Source of the DNA: Bradyrhizobium sp. CB1717
Lineage (GTDB): Bacteria > Pseudomonadota > Alphaproteobacteria > Rhizobiales > Xanthobacteraceae
Length of the DNA stretch: 64,000 nucleotides
Assembly: GCF_029714325.1 (NCBI RefSeq)
Contig: NZ_CP121666.1
Coordinates: 3,968,001-4,032,000 of the forward strand
Direction of reading: 5' to 3'
This document shows positions 27,637 to 44,398 of the stretch, one piece after another. Positions within the stretch are counted from its first letter, which is position 1. Every line of letters starts with the position of its first letter. The notes below the pieces were generated by a model that saw only the letters and a list, made by a program, of their open reading frames with translations, searched no databases and was not told the origin of the DNA. The position numbers were made by a program, and so were the translations under genes.

Positions 27637-28578
27637 TCAGTACCGGATCCGGGGATCGAGCAGTGTATAGGCGACGTCGATGAGAAGATTGACGACGACG
27701 TAGATCAGCGACGTCAGCAGGATCATGGCCTGGATCACCGGATAGTCGCGCGCCAGCACCGCATCGACCGTGAGACGCCCGATGCCGGGGATGTTGAACA
27801 CGCTCTCGGTGACGACGACGCCGGAGATCAGCAGCGCAAAGCCGGTGCCGATCACGGTGATCACGGGCACGGCGGCATTGCGCAGCGCATGCCGCATCAT
27901 CACGGCAACCTCGTTGATGCCTTTCGCACGTGCCGTTCGCACGTAATCTTCGCCGAGAACGTCGAGCATCGCCGCGCGCGTCATGCGCGCGATCAGCGCG
28001 ATGTAGATGAAGGACAGGGCGCAGGTCGGCAGGATCATGCGCTCGAAGAACGGGCCGAAACCGTTGAAGATGCTGCGGAAGCCCTGCACCGGCACCAGGC
28101 GCAGATCGATCGCGAAGACCTCGATCAAGACATAGCCGACCACGAACACCGGCACCGAGAAGCCGAGCACGGACAGGCCCATCACGAAACGGTCGATCCA
28201 GGTGCCGTGCTTCCACGCCGCGATCACGCCCAGCGGCACCGCGACGATGACGGCGAGGATGATGGTGCACAGCGCGATCGAGATCGACGGCTCGACGCGC
28301 TGGCCGATCATCTTCATGACCGGCAGGTTGGAGATCAGCGATGTTCCGAGGTCGCCGTGCAGCAGCTTGTTCACCCAGGTGATGAACTGCACGATCAGGG
28401 GCTCGTTGAGGCCGAGCGATTCGCGGATGCGCTCGAGCCGTTCGGGTGTCGCGTTGTCGCCGGCAAGGATCGCGGCGGGATCGCCCGGCGTCAGCCGCAG
28501 CAGCAGGAACACGAACAGCGCGACGACGCCCATCACGGGCACCGCGGCCAGAACGCGGCGAATGAGATAACCTAGCAT
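27637..28578 (-). CDS. Peptide ABC transporter permease (DppB-like)
   Basis: A 313-residue inner-membrane permease with six predicted helices. The N-terminal MLGYLIRRVLAAVPVMGVV and the loop LRLTPGDPAAILAGDNATPE are hallmarks of OppB/DppB. The E-A-A loop reads YVRTARAKGINEVAVMMRHA, and the C-terminus ends YTLLDPRIRY as in most family members. It opens the minus-strand transport operon that continues to the DppC-like, fused ATPase and perhaps peptidase genes. The matching binding proteins lie apart, at 31839 and 33594 on the other strand. Confidence 0.94.
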   Translation of the reverse strand: MLGYLIRRVLAAVPVMGVVALFVFLLLRLTPGDPAAILAGDNATPERLERIRESLGLNEPLIVQFITWVNKLLHGDLGTSLISNLPVMKMIGQRVEPSISIALCTIILAVIVAVPLGVIAAWKHGTWIDRFVMGLSVLGFSVPVFVVGYVLIEVFAIDLRLVPVQGFRSIFNGFGPFFERMILPTCALSFIYIALIARMTRAAMLDVLGEDYVRTARAKGINEVAVMMRHALRNAAVPVITVIGTGFALLISGVVVTESVFNIPGIGRLTVDAVLARDYPVIQAMILLTSLIYVVVNLLIDVAYTLLDPRIRY

Positions 28579-28759: not shown

Positions 28760-30061
28760 TCAGGATGCATGACGCAGCTCACGCTCAACCCCAAGTGAAG
28801 GAACGGTCGGCGGCGCGTTGAGCCCGCGCCAGCCGTCGATGGTCCCGGCGATCATGTGCGCGGTGGCGGCCGACAGGGTCCAGCCGAGATGGCCGTGGCC
28901 GGTGTTGAAGAACACGCCCGGAATCCGCCCTGCGCGCACCACCGGCATCATGTTCGGCATCATCGGGCGCAGCCCGGCCCAGGGCACGACGCGCGAGGTC
29001 TCGATGGCGGGGAAGTTGCTACGCACCCAGTCGACCAGCGGCTGCACGCGGTCGGCGCGGATGTCGCGGTTGAAGTCGTTGAACTCGGCGGTGCCGGCCA
29101 CGCGAAAACGATCGGCACCGAGCCGGCTGGTGACGATCTTGGCGGCTTCGTCGAGCAGGCTCACGGTCGGCGTCGCGTTGCGGCTCTCGGCGGTGTCGAG
29201 CTGCACGGTGATCGAGTAGCCCTTCACCGGGTAGACGTTGATGCGATCGTCGAGGAGGGCGGCGAAGTGGCGGCTGGCGACGCCGGCGCAGACCACGACA
29301 CCGTCGGCCTTCAGCATGCCGCGCGCGGAGGCGAGGGCATCGCTTGCAGCAAGATCGGCCCAGCCGAGCACGAAGCCGCTGCCGGCGCGCGCGATTGAAT
29401 CGATATTGGCCTCGTGGATGAAGGTCGCGCCGCGCCGCTTGCAGGCGTCCGCCAGCCCGCGGGTGAACTTGTGGATATCGCCGGTCGCATCCGACGGCGT
29501 GTAGAAGCCGCCATAATACGCCTTGCGCAGCGTCGGCTCGATCGCGCGGATCTCCTCAGGCGTCACCGGACGGCGATCGAGACCACCTTCCTGCAGCAGC
29601 GCGTTGACGCGCAGGCCGGATTCGAAACCCGTCTTGTCGTGATAGATGTGGAGGATGCCGCGGCGCTCGAGATCGAAGTCGATGCCTTCGCGCGCCGCGA
29701 TCTCGAACAGATGCTTGCGGGCTTCGATCGCGAGCCGCGTGGTCTCGATCGTATTGGCGCGGTAGTTGCCGATGTTGGCGACGAACTCGCTCATCCACGA
29801 ATATTTGTGCCAGTTCGGCCGCGGGTTCATCAGCAGCGGCGCGTCGCGCCGGAACATCCAGCGCAAGCCTTTCAGGATGGTCGCGGTGCTGTTCCACACT
29901 TCGGCATTGCTGGCGGAGAGCTGTCCGCCATTGGCGAACGATGTTTCCATCGCGGCGTAACGGTGCTTGTCGAGCACCGTCACCTCAAAGCCGCGTTCGA
30001 GCAGGGCATAGGCAGTCGTCACGCCGGTGATGCCGGCGCCGATGATGGCGATATGGGTCAT
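28760..30061 (-). CDS. D-amino-acid dehydrogenase-like FAD oxidoreductase (DadA family)
   Basis: A 433-residue flavoprotein of the glycine/D-amino-acid oxidase (DAO) family. The FAD dinucleotide motif GAGITGVTTAYALLERG starts at residue 8, followed by the acidic VTVLDKH strand end. Further family marks are TSFANGGQLS near the flavin, VVVCAGVASR, PVKGYSITV and the C-terminal AGLRPMMPNMMPV and NTGHGHLGWT. DadA enzymes deaminate D-amino acids, chiefly D-alanine, passing electrons to the respiratory chain; relatives oxidise glycine or sarcosine. A tandem glycine riboswitch lies in its leader (30124-30331), which points to glycine or a glycine-linked amino acid as signal. ATG 30061 fits the family start. 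Confidence 0.93.
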   Translation of the reverse strand: MTHIAIIGAGITGVTTAYALLERGFEVTVLDKHRYAAMETSFANGGQLSASNAEVWNSTATILKGLRWMFRRDAPLLMNPRPNWHKYSWMSEFVANIGNYRANTIETTRLAIEARKHLFEIAAREGIDFDLERRGILHIYHDKTGFESGLRVNALLQEGGLDRRPVTPEEIRAIEPTLRKAYYGGFYTPSDATGDIHKFTRGLADACKRRGATFIHEANIDSIARAGSGFVLGWADLAASDALASARGMLKADGVVVCAGVASRHFAALLDDRINVYPVKGYSITVQLDTAESRNATPTVSLLDEAAKIVTSRLGADRFRVAGTAEFNDFNRDIRADRVQPLVDWVRSNFPAIETSRVVPWAGLRPMMPNMMPVVRAGRIPGVFFNTGHGHLGWTLSAATAHMIAGTIDGWRGLNAPPTVPSLGVERELRHAS

Positions 30062-30090
30062 GGCAGGTTCGGGGCTCCCGTGAGTTAGGA

Positions 30091-30116
30091 TAGGTCGGCC
30101 GCCGGCCAAAGGCCGT
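30091..30116 (-). promoter_or_regulatory. Putative expression-platform hairpin below the glycine riboswitch
   Basis: On the minus strand GCCGCC then AACGGCC pairs across a TTT loop with GGCC then GGCGGC, giving a strong stem about 30 nt upstream of the DadA-like start. No T-run follows, so translational control or RNA stabilisation is more likely than simple termination (inference). Confidence 0.5.
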
Positions 30117-30123
30117 TGGCGGC

Positions 30124-30331
30124 GCCCCATCTGTCACGGTTACCTGAGAGCTTGATCCGCTGCGGATCACGCAACGGACTATCCCCTTCGGTGGACGCCA
30201 CGATTGCCTGAAATCGCGCCGCCTCTCTCCAGATCGTCCTGACGATACGGTCCTTTTGCCTGAGAGTTTCCGGGGCGGTTGCTCCGTCGGCGCCGCAACG
30301 AAAGCCGAAAACCTTCGTTGCGATCTCTCCC
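30124..30331 (-). promoter_or_regulatory. Tandem glycine riboswitch (two gcvT-type aptamers)
   Basis: Read on the minus strand, both aptamers are recognisable. Aptamer 1 (about 30251-30331) begins GGAGAGATCGCAACG, has the core GGCGCCGACGGAGCAA and ends CTCTCAGGCAAAAGGACCG. Aptamer 2 (about 30124-30230) begins CTGGAGAGAGGCGGCG, has the core CCACCGAAGGGGATAG and ends GCTCTCAGGTAACCGTGACAG. These match the conserved glycine-binding cores and the typical short linker between paired aptamers. It occupies the leader of the DadA-like gene whose start is at 30061. Whether glycine turns expression on or off is not readable with certainty; catabolic genes are usually activated. Confidence 0.95.
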
Positions 30332-30373
30332 GCATCGTCGCGTGGACGATCGAGCAGTACGATACGCCTCATT

Positions 30374-30437: not shown

Positions 30438-31568
30438 TTACTCCAGCGTCGCCAGCAATCCCGCCATCAAGCGCCCGCGTTCGACGAGGCTATCGACCTC
30501 GATGAACTCCTCGAGTGTGTGGCCGTTGCCGCCGCGCACGCCGAGGCCATCGAGAGTTGGGATTCCCATCGCACCGGTGAAGTTGCCGTCGGAGCCGCCG
30601 CCGGAGCTCGCATGCGGTAATTCCGCGCCGAGGGATTTGGCGATGCCGCGCGCCTTCTCGTACAACGCCATGGTGCCGGCATCCGGCTCCCAGACCGGCC
30701 GCGTCACGCCGCGCGTCACCTTGAAGCTGACGTCGTTCTTGGTGCCCGAGAGTGCCAGCATCCGCTCGACGCCGCGGTCGAGATCGGCCTGGCGCTTGGC
30801 CATCGACAGCGCCTCGCCGGTCGCGGTCGTGGCAACGCAATTGACCCATTGTCCGCCATGCACGACGCCGACCGAGAAGGTGCAGTCCTCCGTCGTCATC
30901 GCGTCGATCGCGAGAATCTGCCGCGCCATTTCGCGAATTGCCGAACGGCCCGCCGACAGCGTCGCGCCGGCGTGGCTCGGCCGTCCCGTCGCCTCGAGAT
31001 TGAAGCGTGCGATGGCGTAACGTCCGGTAGTGACGCCGTTGTCGGCGCGGCCGGGCTCGGGCACCAGCACGTATTTATTGCGCGCGGCTTCCGCCTCGAT
31101 GATGTCGCGCGTCGAAGGCGTGCCGACTTCCTCGTCGGGCGTGAACAGCACGGTGACCGGCAGCGGCGTGGTGAACGAGGCGCGCGCCAGCTGCCGGATC
31201 GCTTCCAGCGAGAGATAATTGCCGCCTTTCATGTCGTATATGCCGGGGCCGTAGCATTTGTTGCCCTCGCGCCGCCATTTCAGCTTCTCGATGGTGCCGA
31301 CCGGATGGACGGTATCCATGTGACCGGCGATCAGGATGCCCGGCTCGCCCTGTTTCGGATGCGGAAAACGCGCGCGGATCACTCCGCCAAAACCCTGACG
31401 GCCGGCGATGCGCTCGATCGTCGCACCCATGATCGCCATATCCCGCGCTGCGATATCGAGCATGTGGTTCACCGCGTTCGCGTCCCAGGTCGGGCTTTCG
31501 CATTCCACCCAGGTGCGCAGGCCCTCGAGCATGGCCTCGGAATCGAAGGGAAGATTGGCTGGATTCAT
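30438..31568 (-). CDS. M20 family metallopeptidase (carboxypeptidase G2-like)
   Basis: A 376-residue two-zinc exopeptidase. Metal ligands can be placed: H83 (AGHMDTVHP), D112 (YDMKGGNYLS), E147 with catalytic E146 (TPDEEVGTPS), E171 (VPEPGRA) and the C-terminal His of NGHTLEEF. The insertion domain carries GRPSHAGATL. Carboxypeptidase G2/glutamate carboxypeptidase relatives remove C-terminal amino acids from peptides or folates. ATG 31568 is preceded by GAGAGA. It is divergent from the first binding-protein gene and ends about 100 nt before the riboswitch, so it may be regulated with the transporter rather than with glycine. Confidence 0.92.
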   Translation of the reverse strand: MNPANLPFDSEAMLEGLRTWVECESPTWDANAVNHMLDIAARDMAIMGATIERIAGRQGFGGVIRARFPHPKQGEPGILIAGHMDTVHPVGTIEKLKWRREGNKCYGPGIYDMKGGNYLSLEAIRQLARASFTTPLPVTVLFTPDEEVGTPSTRDIIEAEAARNKYVLVPEPGRADNGVTTGRYAIARFNLEATGRPSHAGATLSAGRSAIREMARQILAIDAMTTEDCTFSVGVVHGGQWVNCVATTATGEALSMAKRQADLDRGVERMLALSGTKNDVSFKVTRGVTRPVWEPDAGTMALYEKARGIAKSLGAELPHASSGGGSDGNFTGAMGIPTLDGLGVRGGNGHTLEEFIEVDSLVERGRLMAGLLATLE

Positions 31569-31838
31569 CTTAATGTCTCTCAAGCTGCGAAAGATGGAAC
31601 GCGCATTGCATCGGCGCGGGGCAGGACAAGCGGAGAGCGTTGTAGAGCCAAACCGATCTTTGTGGAGCCCGTGCGCGCGCTGCGAGGGCTTGCGACGAAA
31701 CCGGATTGACGCGCTCAACACTGTCTGCAAGTCTCGAAAAGATAAAGGCATTGCATGAGGTTAGTTCGCCCAAGGAACGAACCGGATGCTCAACCAATAA
31801 CCTGCCTTTGAACAGTTTCACGTCAGGAGAAACTTTTT

Positions 31839-33446
31839 ATGTCCAACTTCATGCGCCGGGGGCCTCGCGCGTTCGCCTCCAAACTTGCGCTGTCGGTCGT
31901 CGCGCTTTCAACGGCACTGGCCTCGCCGGTGCTTGCGGCCGGCAAGACCCTTACCGCGGTGATGCATTCCGACCTTCGCATCATCGATCCGATCTTCACC
32001 ACGGCCTACATCACGCGTGACCATGGCTACATGGTCTACGACACGCTGGTGGCCCCCGATTCGAATTTCAAGATCCAGCCGCAGATGGCGGATTGGAAGA
32101 TCTCCGACGACAAGCTCACCTACACTTTCACGCTGCGCGACGGCCTGAAGTGGCATGACGGCGCGCCCGTGACGGCGGAAGACTGCGTCGCCTCGCTCAA
32201 GCGCTGGGCCGCGGTCGACGGCATGGGCCAGAAGCTCTGGGACTTCACCGCGAGCCTCGAGGCGACCGACGCCAAGACCATCACGCTGAAGCTGAAGGAA
32301 CCCTACGGCCTCGTCCTCGATTCCATCGGCAAGCCGTCCTCGCGCGTCGCCTTCATGATGCCGAAGCGTCTCGCCGAGATCCCGCCGGACAAGCAGATCC
32401 CCGAGCAGATCGGCTCGGGTCCCTTCAAGTTCGTGCAGGGCGAATTCCAGCCCGGCGTGAAGGCGGTCTACGTCAAGAACACCGATTACGTGCCGCGCAA
32501 GGAGCCGGCGAGCTGGACCTCCGGCGGCAAGGTGGTGAAGGTCGACCGCGTCGAGTGGATCACGATGCCGGACTCGCAGACCGCGGTGAATGCGCTGCAG
32601 TCGGGCGACATCGACTTCATGGAAAACCTGCCCTACGACATGTTGCCGGTGCTGGAAGCGAACAAGGAGCTCACGATCGAGGTCTCCAACAAGTTCGGTT
32701 TCCAGACCCTCGGCCGGATGAACTTCCTCTATCCGCCGTTCGACAACGTGAAGGTGCGCCGTGCTGCCCTGCTGGCGATGAACCAGAAGGACGTTCTCGA
32801 CGCGCTCGTCGGCAATGCCAAGTACCAGAAGATCTGCGGCGCGTTCTTCGTCTGCGACACGCCGTTTGCGACCGAGGTCGGCGCGGAAACCCTGGTGAAG
32901 GGCAACGGCATGGCGGAAGCCAAGAAGGCGCTCGCCGAGTCCGGCTACGACGGCACCCCGGTCGTGGTGATGGCGCCTGGCGACGTCACGACGCTCAAGG
33001 CGCAGCCGATCGTGGCTGCCCAGCTGCTGCGCGAGGCCGGCTTCAAGGTCGACCTGCAGGCGACCGACTGGCAGACGGTGGTGAGCCGCCGCGCCAGCCA
33101 GAAGCCGCCGAAGGAGGGGGGCTGGAACATGTTCTTCACCAACTGGGTCGCGGCCGACGTGTCCAACCCGATCGCCAATCTCTCGATCGGCGGCCAGGGC
33201 AAGAAGGGCTGGTTCGGCTGGGCGGAAGACGCCAAGATCGAGCAGCTCAAGGACGCCTTCGTCCGCGCGTCCTCGATCGACGAGCAGAAGAAGATCGCGG
33301 CCGACATCCAGAAGGAAGCCTATGAGCAGGTGATCTACATCCCGCTCGGGCAGTACCTGCTGCCGAGCGGCTGGCGCAAATCGCTGACCGGCGTGCTCGA
33401 CGGCCCGGCAACGCCGCTGTTCTGGAACGTCGACAAGTCTGAGTAA
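31839..33446 (+). CDS. Peptide ABC transporter substrate-binding protein, copy 1
   Basis: A 535-residue periplasmic binding protein of family 5 (DppA/OppA type). The signal peptide runs through residue 33 or so, with n-region MSNFMRRGPRAFASK and cleavage near SPVLAAGK. The SBP_bac_5 landmark DHGYMVYDTLVA and the sequence TYTFTLRDGLKWHDG follow. It delivers peptides or similar ligands to the Dpp-type permease encoded at 26732-28578 (inference from context). A paralogue of the same length follows at 33594, and both are trailed by the same hairpin. AGGAGA precedes the ATG. Confidence 0.94.
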   Translation: MSNFMRRGPRAFASKLALSVVALSTALASPVLAAGKTLTAVMHSDLRIIDPIFTTAYITRDHGYMVYDTLVAPDSNFKIQPQMADWKISDDKLTYTFTLRDGLKWHDGAPVTAEDCVASLKRWAAVDGMGQKLWDFTASLEATDAKTITLKLKEPYGLVLDSIGKPSSRVAFMMPKRLAEIPPDKQIPEQIGSGPFKFVQGEFQPGVKAVYVKNTDYVPRKEPASWTSGGKVVKVDRVEWITMPDSQTAVNALQSGDIDFMENLPYDMLPVLEANKELTIEVSNKFGFQTLGRMNFLYPPFDNVKVRRAALLAMNQKDVLDALVGNAKYQKICGAFFVCDTPFATEVGAETLVKGNGMAEAKKALAESGYDGTPVVVMAPGDVTTLKAQPIVAAQLLREAGFKVDLQATDWQTVVSRRASQKPPKEGGWNMFFTNWVAADVSNPIANLSIGGQGKKGWFGWAEDAKIEQLKDAFVRASSIDEQKKIAADIQKEAYEQVIYIPLGQYLLPSGWRKSLTGVLDGPATPLFWNVDKSE

Positions 33447-33593: not shown

Positions 33594-35201
33594 ATGTTCG
33601 AAATGATGCGCCGGGGACGTCTCGCGTTCGCTTCAAGACTTGCGCTTTCGGTGGTGGCCCTTTCCGCGCTGGCCTCGCCGGTTCTTGCCGCAGGCAAGAC
33701 CATCACCGCCGTGATGCATTCGGACCTGCGCATCCTCGATCCGATCTTCACCAGCGCCTACATCTCGCGCGACCATGGCTACATGGTCTACGACACGCTG
33801 ATCGCGACGGATTCGAACTTCAAGATCCAGCCGCAGATGGCGGATTGGAAGATCTCCGACGACAAGCTGACCTACACCTTCACGCTCCGCGACGGTCTGA
33901 AGTGGCATGACGGCACGCCCGTCACCGCGGAAGATTGCGTTGCCTCCCTGAAGCGCTGGGCCGCTGTCGACGGCATGGGGCAGCAGATGATGCTGTTCAC
34001 CGCGAGCCTCGAGGCGACCGACCCCAAGACCATCACGCTGAAGCTGAAGGAGCCGTACGCGCTCGTGCTGGAATCGATCGGCAAGCCGTCCTCGCGGGTC
34101 GCCTTCATGATGCCGAAGCGTCTCGCCGAGACGCCGGTGGACAAGCAGATTCCCGAGCAGATCGGCTCCGGCCCCTTCAAGTTCGTGCAGGGCGAATTCC
34201 AGCCGGGCGTGAAGTCGGTCTATGTCAAGAACACCGACTATGTGCCGCGCAAGGAGCCGGCGAGCTGGACCACCGGCGGCAAGGTGGTGAAGGTCGACCG
34301 CGTCGAATGGATCACGATGCCGGACGCGCAGACGGCGTTGAACGCGCTGCAGTCGGGCGACGTCGATTTCATGGAATTTCCTGCCATCGAAATGTTGCCC
34401 GCCATCGAAGCCGACAAGGAGCTCAAGATCGAGATCCTGAACAAGTTCGGATTCCAGACGGGCGCACGGATGAACTTCCTCCATCCGCCGTTCGACAACG
34501 TCAAGGTCCGCCGCGCCGCATTCCTGGCGGTCAAGCAGAAGGACGTGCTCGATGCGCTGATCGGCAATCCCAAATACTACAAGACTTGTGCTGCGGCCTT
34601 CATTTGCGACACGCCGTTCGCGACGGACATTGGCGGCGAGACCCTCGCGAAGGGCGGCGACATGGCTGCGGCCAGGAAGGCGCTCGCCGAGTCCGGTTAT
34701 GACGGGACACCGGTCGTGCTCATGGCGCCGGGCGACGTGCTGCTGCTGAAGGCGCAACCGATCGTGGTGGCTCAGCAGCTGCGCGAAGCCGGCTTCAAGG
34801 TCGACCTGCAGGCGACCGACTGGCAGACGGTAGTGAGCCGGCGCGCCAGCCAGAAGCCCCCGAAGGAGGGCGGCTGGAACATGTTCATCACCAACTGGGT
34901 CAGCGCCGACGTGGACAACCCGATCTCCAACGTCGCCGTCGGCGGGCAGGGCAGGAAGGGCGGCTGGTTCGGCTGGGCGGAGGACGCCAAGATCGAGCAG
35001 CTCAAGGACGCCTTCGTTCGCGCGACCTCGGCGGAGGAGCAGAAGAAGATCGCGGCCGAGATCCAGAAGGAAGCCTACGACCAGGTGCTTTACATGCCGC
35101 TGGGTCAATATCAGGCGCCGAGCGCGTGGCGGAAGTCGCTCACCGGCGTGCTCGACGGCCCGGCAACCCCGGTGTTCTGGAACATCGACAAGACGGAGTA
35201 A
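33594..35201 (+). CDS. Peptide ABC transporter substrate-binding protein, copy 2
   Basis: A 535-residue paralogue of the preceding gene with the same signal-peptide layout (MMRRGRLAFASRLA, cleavage near SPVLAAGK) and long identical stretches, for example KISDDKLTYTFTLRDGLKWH and EQIGSGPFKFVQGEFQPGVK. Differences cluster in a few places: the region after SGD (IDFMENLPYDM versus VDFMEFPAIEM), YPPF versus HPPF, and ICGAFFVCD versus TCAAAFICD. These would fall in or near the ligand pocket if changes track specificity (inference). CAGGAGA precedes the ATG. It ends with the same hairpin as copy 1, followed here by a T-run. Confidence 0.94.
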   Translation: MFEMMRRGRLAFASRLALSVVALSALASPVLAAGKTITAVMHSDLRILDPIFTSAYISRDHGYMVYDTLIATDSNFKIQPQMADWKISDDKLTYTFTLRDGLKWHDGTPVTAEDCVASLKRWAAVDGMGQQMMLFTASLEATDPKTITLKLKEPYALVLESIGKPSSRVAFMMPKRLAETPVDKQIPEQIGSGPFKFVQGEFQPGVKSVYVKNTDYVPRKEPASWTTGGKVVKVDRVEWITMPDAQTALNALQSGDVDFMEFPAIEMLPAIEADKELKIEILNKFGFQTGARMNFLHPPFDNVKVRRAAFLAVKQKDVLDALIGNPKYYKTCAAAFICDTPFATDIGGETLAKGGDMAAARKALAESGYDGTPVVLMAPGDVLLLKAQPIVVAQQLREAGFKVDLQATDWQTVVSRRASQKPPKEGGWNMFITNWVSADVDNPISNVAVGGQGRKGGWFGWAEDAKIEQLKDAFVRATSAEEQKKIAAEIQKEAYDQVLYMPLGQYQAPSAWRKSLTGVLDGPATPVFWNIDKTE

Positions 35202-44216: not shown

Positions 44217-44312
44217 GTGCGCGCGGAATCGCAATGACGCCGGCGCGCCCGGACGAAAGCGATGCGATTGCAGGCGGCGTATCACCATCCTCGCCCCCGT
44301 CAGCTCGGATGG

Positions 44313-44398
44313 TGCGGGCAGCCGGGGTCGAACCGGCACAGCGCTTGCGCGCCGAGGGATTTTAAGTCCCTTGCGTCTACCAATTCCGCCATGCCCGC
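44313..44398 (-). tRNA. tRNA-Leu (UAA anticodon)
   Basis: On the minus strand the gene starts GCGGGCATGGCGGAATTGG and closes with GCCCGCA paired to GCGGGC. The anticodon loop is GACTTAAAATC (anticodon TAA), the variable arm is long, as in type-2 leucine tRNAs (CGGCGCGCAAGCGCTG), and the T-arm is CCGGTTCGACCCCGG. CCA follows at 44312-44310 and so is genome-encoded. About 86 nt without CCA. No integrase or direct-repeat attachment site was noticed next to it. Confidence 0.97.

Follow-up and report, generated by a model that had tools for sequence, protein, structure and literature searches.

Why should a glycine riboswitch stand in front of a gene labelled as a D-amino acid dehydrogenase? The question is raised by a stretch of 64,000 nucleotides from the genome of Bradyrhizobium sp. 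CB1717 (contig NZ_CP121666.1, positions 3,968,001 to 4,032,000), referred to here as the window, in which a coding sequence (CDS) for a flavoprotein of the PRK12409 (NF009074) family, at 28760-30061 on the minus strand, is preceded by a tandem pair of glycine aptamers (RF00504). Comparison of many genomes suggests that the label is wrong and that the enzyme burns off surplus glycine. We give a probability of about three in four to the reading that the riboswitch controls a glycine dehydrogenase or oxidase, and not a general D-amino acid dehydrogenase.

The riboswitch and its unusual target

A cmscan search with Rfam 15, at gathering thresholds, found both aptamers on the minus strand upstream of the CDS, each with a significant score above the RF00504 gathering cut-off of 32 bits (Table 1). 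A preliminary description, made from the sequence alone, had proposed both a tandem glycine riboswitch and this way of checking it; the riboswitch is thereby confirmed, and the extent then given, 30124-30331, was roughly correct, the measured one being about 30121-30342. When the host genome was searched by itself, the second aptamer scored 44.5 bits across the whole model (G000:C1:3998121-3998242, corresponding to window positions 30121-30242).

The leader folds better than 100 out of 100 shuffled sequences (z -2.96). Within 54 related leaders, aligned by fitting to the covariance model, all six P1 pairs and all four P2 pairs feature changes on both sides: 96.5% of the cells of these two helices are paired, and changes on both sides are found in 150 cells, against 40 in shuffles. 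The only other RF00504 matches in the 9.23-Mb genome are a tandem pair upstream of gcvT-gcvH-gcvP, which is an internal yardstick. The window pair resembles the standard gcvTHP-linked form in that both aptamers exceed the gathering score, lie in tandem order and retain the conserved core, but the gene controlled codes for a single flavoprotein, not for glycine cleavage, transport or a serine enzyme. The riboswitch itself is ordinary; its target is unusual, yet widely conserved.

Conservation of the pairing

Conservation was evaluated in a set of named loci, the best 80 of 587 protein relatives (60-98% identity, one genome per species), which span alpha-, beta- and gammaproteobacteria and were scanned with an aptamer model derived from the first aptamer of 30 PRK12409-family leaders. 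In all of the 80 loci but L121 and L166, hence in 78, an aptamer immediately precedes the gene in the same orientation, and each of these 78 leaders also shows the 3' end of a second aptamer by pattern (one pattern recognised 70 of them, a variant the remaining 8). Since these loci had been picked by similarity, genomes were also sampled by taxonomy, although the two sets may share species. A gene above the NF009074 cut-off was found in 25 out of 398 Pseudomonadota genomes, the window gene included, and 24 of these genes are preceded by the aptamer; further taxonomic samples gave 77 out of 79 PRK12409 genes. Similarly, a first sample of the host's taxonomic family showed an RF00504 match just upstream of 13 of the 14 genes at least 58% identical to the window gene.

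Control DadA homologues, falling under the cut-off, show weak aptamer matches (22-37 bits) in only 5 of 45 cases, all from one family, and no match was found upstream of the second DadA homologue of the host genome. On a quick tree of 42 proteins, the distribution of the riboswitch needs 4 gains or losses, compared with 7.5 when labels are shuffled. These figures back the earlier suggestion that the enzyme is probably switched by glycine.

PRK12409 genes devoid of an aptamer are those of loci L121, with a formyl transferase gene upstream, L166, L209/L257, with an amino-acid permease gene upstream, L326, and L327, with a TRAP (tripartite ATP-independent periplasmic) DctP gene upstream, as well as the gene of genome G037, described below. 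In L257 (genome G386) the gene lies directly 3' of the permease gene, while the leader of L326 (genome G1326) has kept nothing of the tandem pair but the 3' end of aptamer 2, and is possibly a decayed riboswitch. Two genes, G1262 and G1154, begin at a contig end and were left out of the leader comparison. Genome G1057 carries two divergent aptamers, one directed toward PRK12409 and the other toward a gene of the sodium:alanine symporter family, which is among the kinds of target already known for glycine riboswitches.

Relationship to known enzymes

The gene had been described at first as DadA-like and distinct from gcvT, and this is borne out: the protein has the DAO fold (PF01266) and scores well above the curated NF009074 cut-off (Table 1). 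Among the 398 genomes this model leaves a clear gap between members, at 654-748 bits, and the next homologues, at 341. DadA (NF001933) is the nearest broad family, but PRK12409 forms a clade apart from it, and the window protein, at 332.8 bits, falls under the DadA cut-off of 383. Passages of PMC9436414 give E. coli DadA a Michaelis constant above 500 mM for glycine, which makes this amino acid a very poor substrate.

ThiO (TIGR02352) has the same DAO fold, but identity with the window protein is about 20-25%, and the score, 136.4 bits, is below the cut-off of 250.8; the protein may work in a ThiO-like manner without being ThiO. EC 1.4.2.1, the glycine dehydrogenase (cytochrome) of Nitrobacter, is an orphan enzyme, and a literature search for it returned nothing useful. 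The glyphosate oxidoreductase Gox was considered as well, but the window protein was not assigned to it, because the GHxHxGL motif given in passages of PMC12452685 differs from its GHGHLGW. Passages of a paper on the Brucella flavoproteome (PMC9045290) contributed nothing.

Glycine or a D-amino acid as substrate

A reading closer to the annotation would make PRK12409 a true D-amino acid dehydrogenase, acting for example on D-alanine, with glycine serving only as a signal of amino-acid or cell-wall stress. In that case an OFF switch is conceivable, which would spare D-alanine at high glycine. We consider this reading unlikely. The models themselves (NF009074 and NF001933) carry this annotation, and a clade scoring with NF001933 is also led by the riboswitch, but 40 of the 45 other DadA homologues have no aptamer, and three further lines of evidence point to glycine.

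The first is a thiamine operon. In genome G037 the PRK12409 gene (659 bits), here without a glycine aptamer, lies behind thiS (PF02597), thiG (PF05690) and thiE (NF000734), all in tight or overlapping order, downstream of a thiamine pyrophosphate (TPP) riboswitch (RF00059, 72.0 bits). An operon of this kind would be expected to contain ThiO, by which glycine is oxidised to build the thiazole; the best ThiO-model match in this genome reaches only 144.8 bits, against 231-259 in genomes G000, G007, G071, G095 and G386. This position, in a genome without a good ThiO, speaks against a D-amino acid dehydrogenase.

The second is the distribution of the glycine cleavage system. GcvP (PF02347) is missing in 34 of 100 genomes of the host's taxonomic family, and a riboswitch-led DadA-like gene is found in 14 of these 34, compared with 5 of the 66 possessing GcvP (p 1.0e-4); in the 86 genomes of good quality the figures are 13 of 28 and 4 of 58 (p 4e-5). 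Wherever a glycine aptamer occurs without GcvP, it stands before a DadA-like gene (14 out of 14, G048 being only 79% complete). The DadA-like genes counted here belong to two clades, since in seven genomes of the family (G017, G034, G038, G052, G063, G069 and G070) the aptamer precedes a different DadA-type gene, 37-41% identical; those of G017 and G052 are fragments at contig ends, and that of G070 contains two in-frame TGA codons. The homologues L017 and L024-L035 in that sample have no aptamer. Across the order, 12 of 28 genomes with PRK12409 lack GcvP, against 10 of 52 others (p 0.035), the 52 having been picked evenly from about 278, with one in the host's taxonomic family and a weak match in G857 counted as present.

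The third comes from the literature on Cupriavidus. Passages of PMC11879842 describe the deletion of C. necator dadA6 as a glycine oxidase, which improved neither growth nor yield, and in those of PMC12421819 DadA6 is termed a ThiO ortholog, with reference to Claassens 2020. Of 60 putative Cupriavidus genomes (the genus being taken from 95% protein identity to C. neocaledonicus), 10 contain a site that differs at a single base from one published dadA6 check primer. In nine of the ten it falls about 1.2 kb upstream of a riboswitch-led PRK12409 gene, 91-97% identical, whereas the tenth shows neither gene nor riboswitch within the fetched stretch. DadA6 is therefore most likely an ortholog, an assignment made through one of two primers; the published passages mention no riboswitch. 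Relatives of the Cupriavidus protein are also carried by 80 plasmid or second-replicon records, 31 of which are predicted to be conjugative.

Taken with the thiamine operon and the GcvP pattern, the dadA6 reports make oxidation of glycine, which the preliminary description had raised as a possibility, the best-supported reading. In the passages of surveys of glycine riboswitch targets, gcv genes, transporters, serine genes and malate synthase are named, but not the PRK12409 family; a passage of PMC3766115 counts twelve glycine-metabolism orthologs, and PRK12409 may already be listed in the supplement of that paper. A parallel is the malate synthase of SAR11, described in passages of PMC2211319 and PMC5069720 as controlled by a glycine riboswitch: this too is a target outside gcv, and it acts on glyoxylate, to which oxidation of glycine is expected to lead. 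The gene, however, is a different one, and malate synthase was not seen among the conserved neighbours of PRK12409.

The leader and the direction of the switch

A search of the leader for terminator-like sites gave none, and control is therefore probably exerted at translation. Between the second aptamer and the start codon lies a hairpin without a T-run (Table 1), which had been placed at 30091-30116 and taken as a hint of translational or unusual control. The hairpin does exist, a few bases away from that position, and is similar across Bradyrhizobium leaders, but a special role for it is not supported, and predicted folds show no clear switch in this leader. Just after the likely Shine-Dalgarno sequence, GCCCC is predicted to pair with a GGGGC 3' of the second aptamer.

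In 72 leaders (seven, whose listed start is not ATG, were dropped), pairing of the 3' strand of the second aptamer with the ribosome-binding region is barely above that of shuffles (mean z -0.49, with 11 leaders below -1.64). A TCTG mimic of the 5' strand of the same aptamer is found near the start in 17 of 64 leaders, against 9.5 expected (p 0.004); taking one leader per genus, it occurs in 6 of 33 (p 0.086), and it is concentrated in Burkholderia-type leaders. An ON switch is not visible in the fold predictions for the window leader, and those for the 72 leaders are indecisive. The catabolic role proposed for the enzyme and the example of gcvTHP nevertheless argue that the gene is most likely switched ON by glycine.

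Weighing the evidence

Several observations weigh against the reading preferred here. Glycine oxidases top the list of 50 fold matches, but sarcosine oxidase and L-proline dehydrogenase come almost level with them, and no structure of DadA, the D-amino acid dehydrogenase small subunit, is among the 50 listed. L019, a member of the second riboswitch-led clade, exceeds the NF001933 cut-off, and thus scores as an ordinary DadA; the glycine switch is therefore not confined to one enzyme family. The thiamine operon was seen in one genome, the sole representative of its genus among those compared, and four of the five ThiO matches used for comparison also fall under the ThiO cut-off. With PRK12409 alone, absence of GcvP (7 of 13 genomes against 27 of 87) is not significant (p 0.12), so that the association in the 100 genomes draws its strength from both clades together; besides, GcvP counts ignore kinship. 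As to dadA6, the second check primer was not found near the gene, the first one bears a mismatch, and the 60 putative Cupriavidus genomes to which they were mapped do not include C. necator H16 itself. Finally, predicted exposure of the Shine-Dalgarno sequence upon aptamer closure goes up in 9 leaders, down in 6 and changes little in 57, and in the window leader it drops slightly, from 0.30 to 0.23.

In another explanation, the enzyme acts on an N-substituted glycine or some other derivative (sarcosine, iminodiacetate or a peptide fragment), and the riboswitch senses the free glycine produced. Sarcosine oxidases, dimethylglycine dehydrogenases and iminodiacetate oxidase are indeed close in fold, and in Bradyrhizobium peptide hydrolases and an opp transporter adjoin the gene; such neighbours, however, are not conserved outside this genus. 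The thiazole route needs iminoglycine made from glycine, and the G037 operon would accordingly require oxidation of glycine itself. An enzyme for glycine derivatives thus appears quite improbable, and glycine is retained as the preferred substrate.

Genomic context

The annotated features of the locus are collected in Table 1.

Table 1. Features of the PRK12409 locus, in window coordinates
Feature	Position	Strand	Evidence
M20 amidohydrolase TIGR01891	22079-23242	minus	391 bits, cut-off 153.75
M81/MlrC-type peptidase	23257-24759	minus	PF07364, PF07171
Fused OppD/OppF-type ATPase	24976-26625	minus	
OppC-type permease	26732-27700	minus	
OppB-type permease	27637-28578	minus	
PRK12409/NF009074 flavin adenine dinucleotide (FAD)-dependent amino-acid dehydrogenase, 433 amino acids	28760-30061	minus	NF009074 718.4 bits, cut-off 494
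Likely Shine-Dalgarno GGGAG, 13 nucleotides ahead of ATG	30075-30079	minus	Predicted from sequence
G+C-rich hairpin, no T-run, between aptamer 2 and start codon	~30098-30123	minus	Sequence and minimum-energy fold
Glycine aptamer 2 (RF00504)	30121-30242, core 30129-30234	minus	38.1 bits, E 4e-4
Glycine aptamer 1 (RF00504)	30238-30342	minus	64.7 bits, E 3.9e-11, full model
M20 hydrolase PRK07473, upstream neighbour	30438-31571	minus	767 bits, cut-off 386
Peptide-type substrate-binding protein 1	31839-33446	plus	PF00496; no glycine aptamer before gene
Peptide-type substrate-binding protein 2	33594-35201	plus	PF00496

Neighbouring genes could be called in 62 of the 80 loci, the other 18 being lost to a crude open reading frame caller. 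Within the 62, opp, MlrC, M20 and amidase neighbours recur in Bradyrhizobium only, and any other neighbour family is found in at most seven genera. In relatives, tandem glycine aptamers lie directly before family 5 peptide-binding-protein genes (loci L052, L066, L067 and L083, in genomes G013, G057 and G095). In the Bradyrhizobium-like genome G095, both the peptide-binding-protein gene and the dehydrogenase gene of the cluster are preceded by a riboswitch of their own, and a binding-protein gene at a second locus of this genome is also directly led by an aptamer. Genes of this kind are not named as glycine riboswitch targets in the passages of the target literature.

A remnant riboswitch before the two peptide-binding-protein genes of the window was considered and rejected, no aptamer being present there. 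The link between riboswitch and peptide uptake, as originally put forward for this locus, is thus only partly supported: glycine-controlled peptide uptake is real in relatives, and only possible in the window. The tandem aptamers that G013, G057 and G095 carry ahead of peptide-binding-protein genes speak for a riboswitch that mainly drives the opp-peptidase cluster, the dehydrogenase being incidental. This is nevertheless very improbable, as in nearly all other genera the riboswitch precedes the dehydrogenase without any opp cluster.

Other features were noted on the way. A lone glycine aptamer of 45.2 bits (L068, G095:C1:869006-869102, minus strand) is one of nine matches in G095. The two substrate-binding-protein genes of the window are tandem paralogues with matching 3' flanks, sharing stretches of 300, 241 and 56 nucleotides that are 88-93% identical. 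A near-perfect 40-nucleotide inverted repeat without spacer, at 24886-24965 between two genes, probably represents one of the dispersed palindromic repeats found in this genus, and a tRNA-Leu gene with anticodon TAA lies at 44310-44398 (minus strand).

Proposed role and significance

According to the reading that we favour, rising glycine would be sensed by the aptamers, which would close, and the gene would be turned on at the level of translation, as with gcvTHP. The flavoprotein, whose substrate and electron acceptor we infer, would convert glycine into iminoacetate and then into glyoxylate and ammonia, so that glycine would be removed alongside the glycine cleavage system or in its stead. 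A cluster for peptide uptake and hydrolysis, to which the gene has become joined in Bradyrhizobium, could supply glycine.

On a wider scale, and with somewhat less assurance, we favour the view that the PRK12409 proteins are a family of dedicated glycine dehydrogenases, whose gene and tandem glycine riboswitch have spread together, as a cassette, across three classes of proteobacteria. This enzyme, or one of a second, DadA-type clade recruited in parallel, would serve for glycine-switched disposal where the cleavage system has been lost, and in a thiamine operon the gene would have exchanged the glycine riboswitch for a TPP riboswitch, as a substitute for ThiO; the ligand of the riboswitch would thus reveal the true substrate, contrary to the annotation.

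If this is correct, thousands of genes labelled as D-amino acid dehydrogenases would encode glycine-oxidising enzymes, bacteria devoid of the glycine cleavage system would gain a named, glycine-controlled route for this amino acid, and the glycine riboswitch regulon would extend to a flavoprotein. The design of strains using the reductive glycine pathway, where glycine oxidation is a carbon leak, would be aided as well. The case illustrates how the identity of a riboswitch can correct the annotation of an enzyme.
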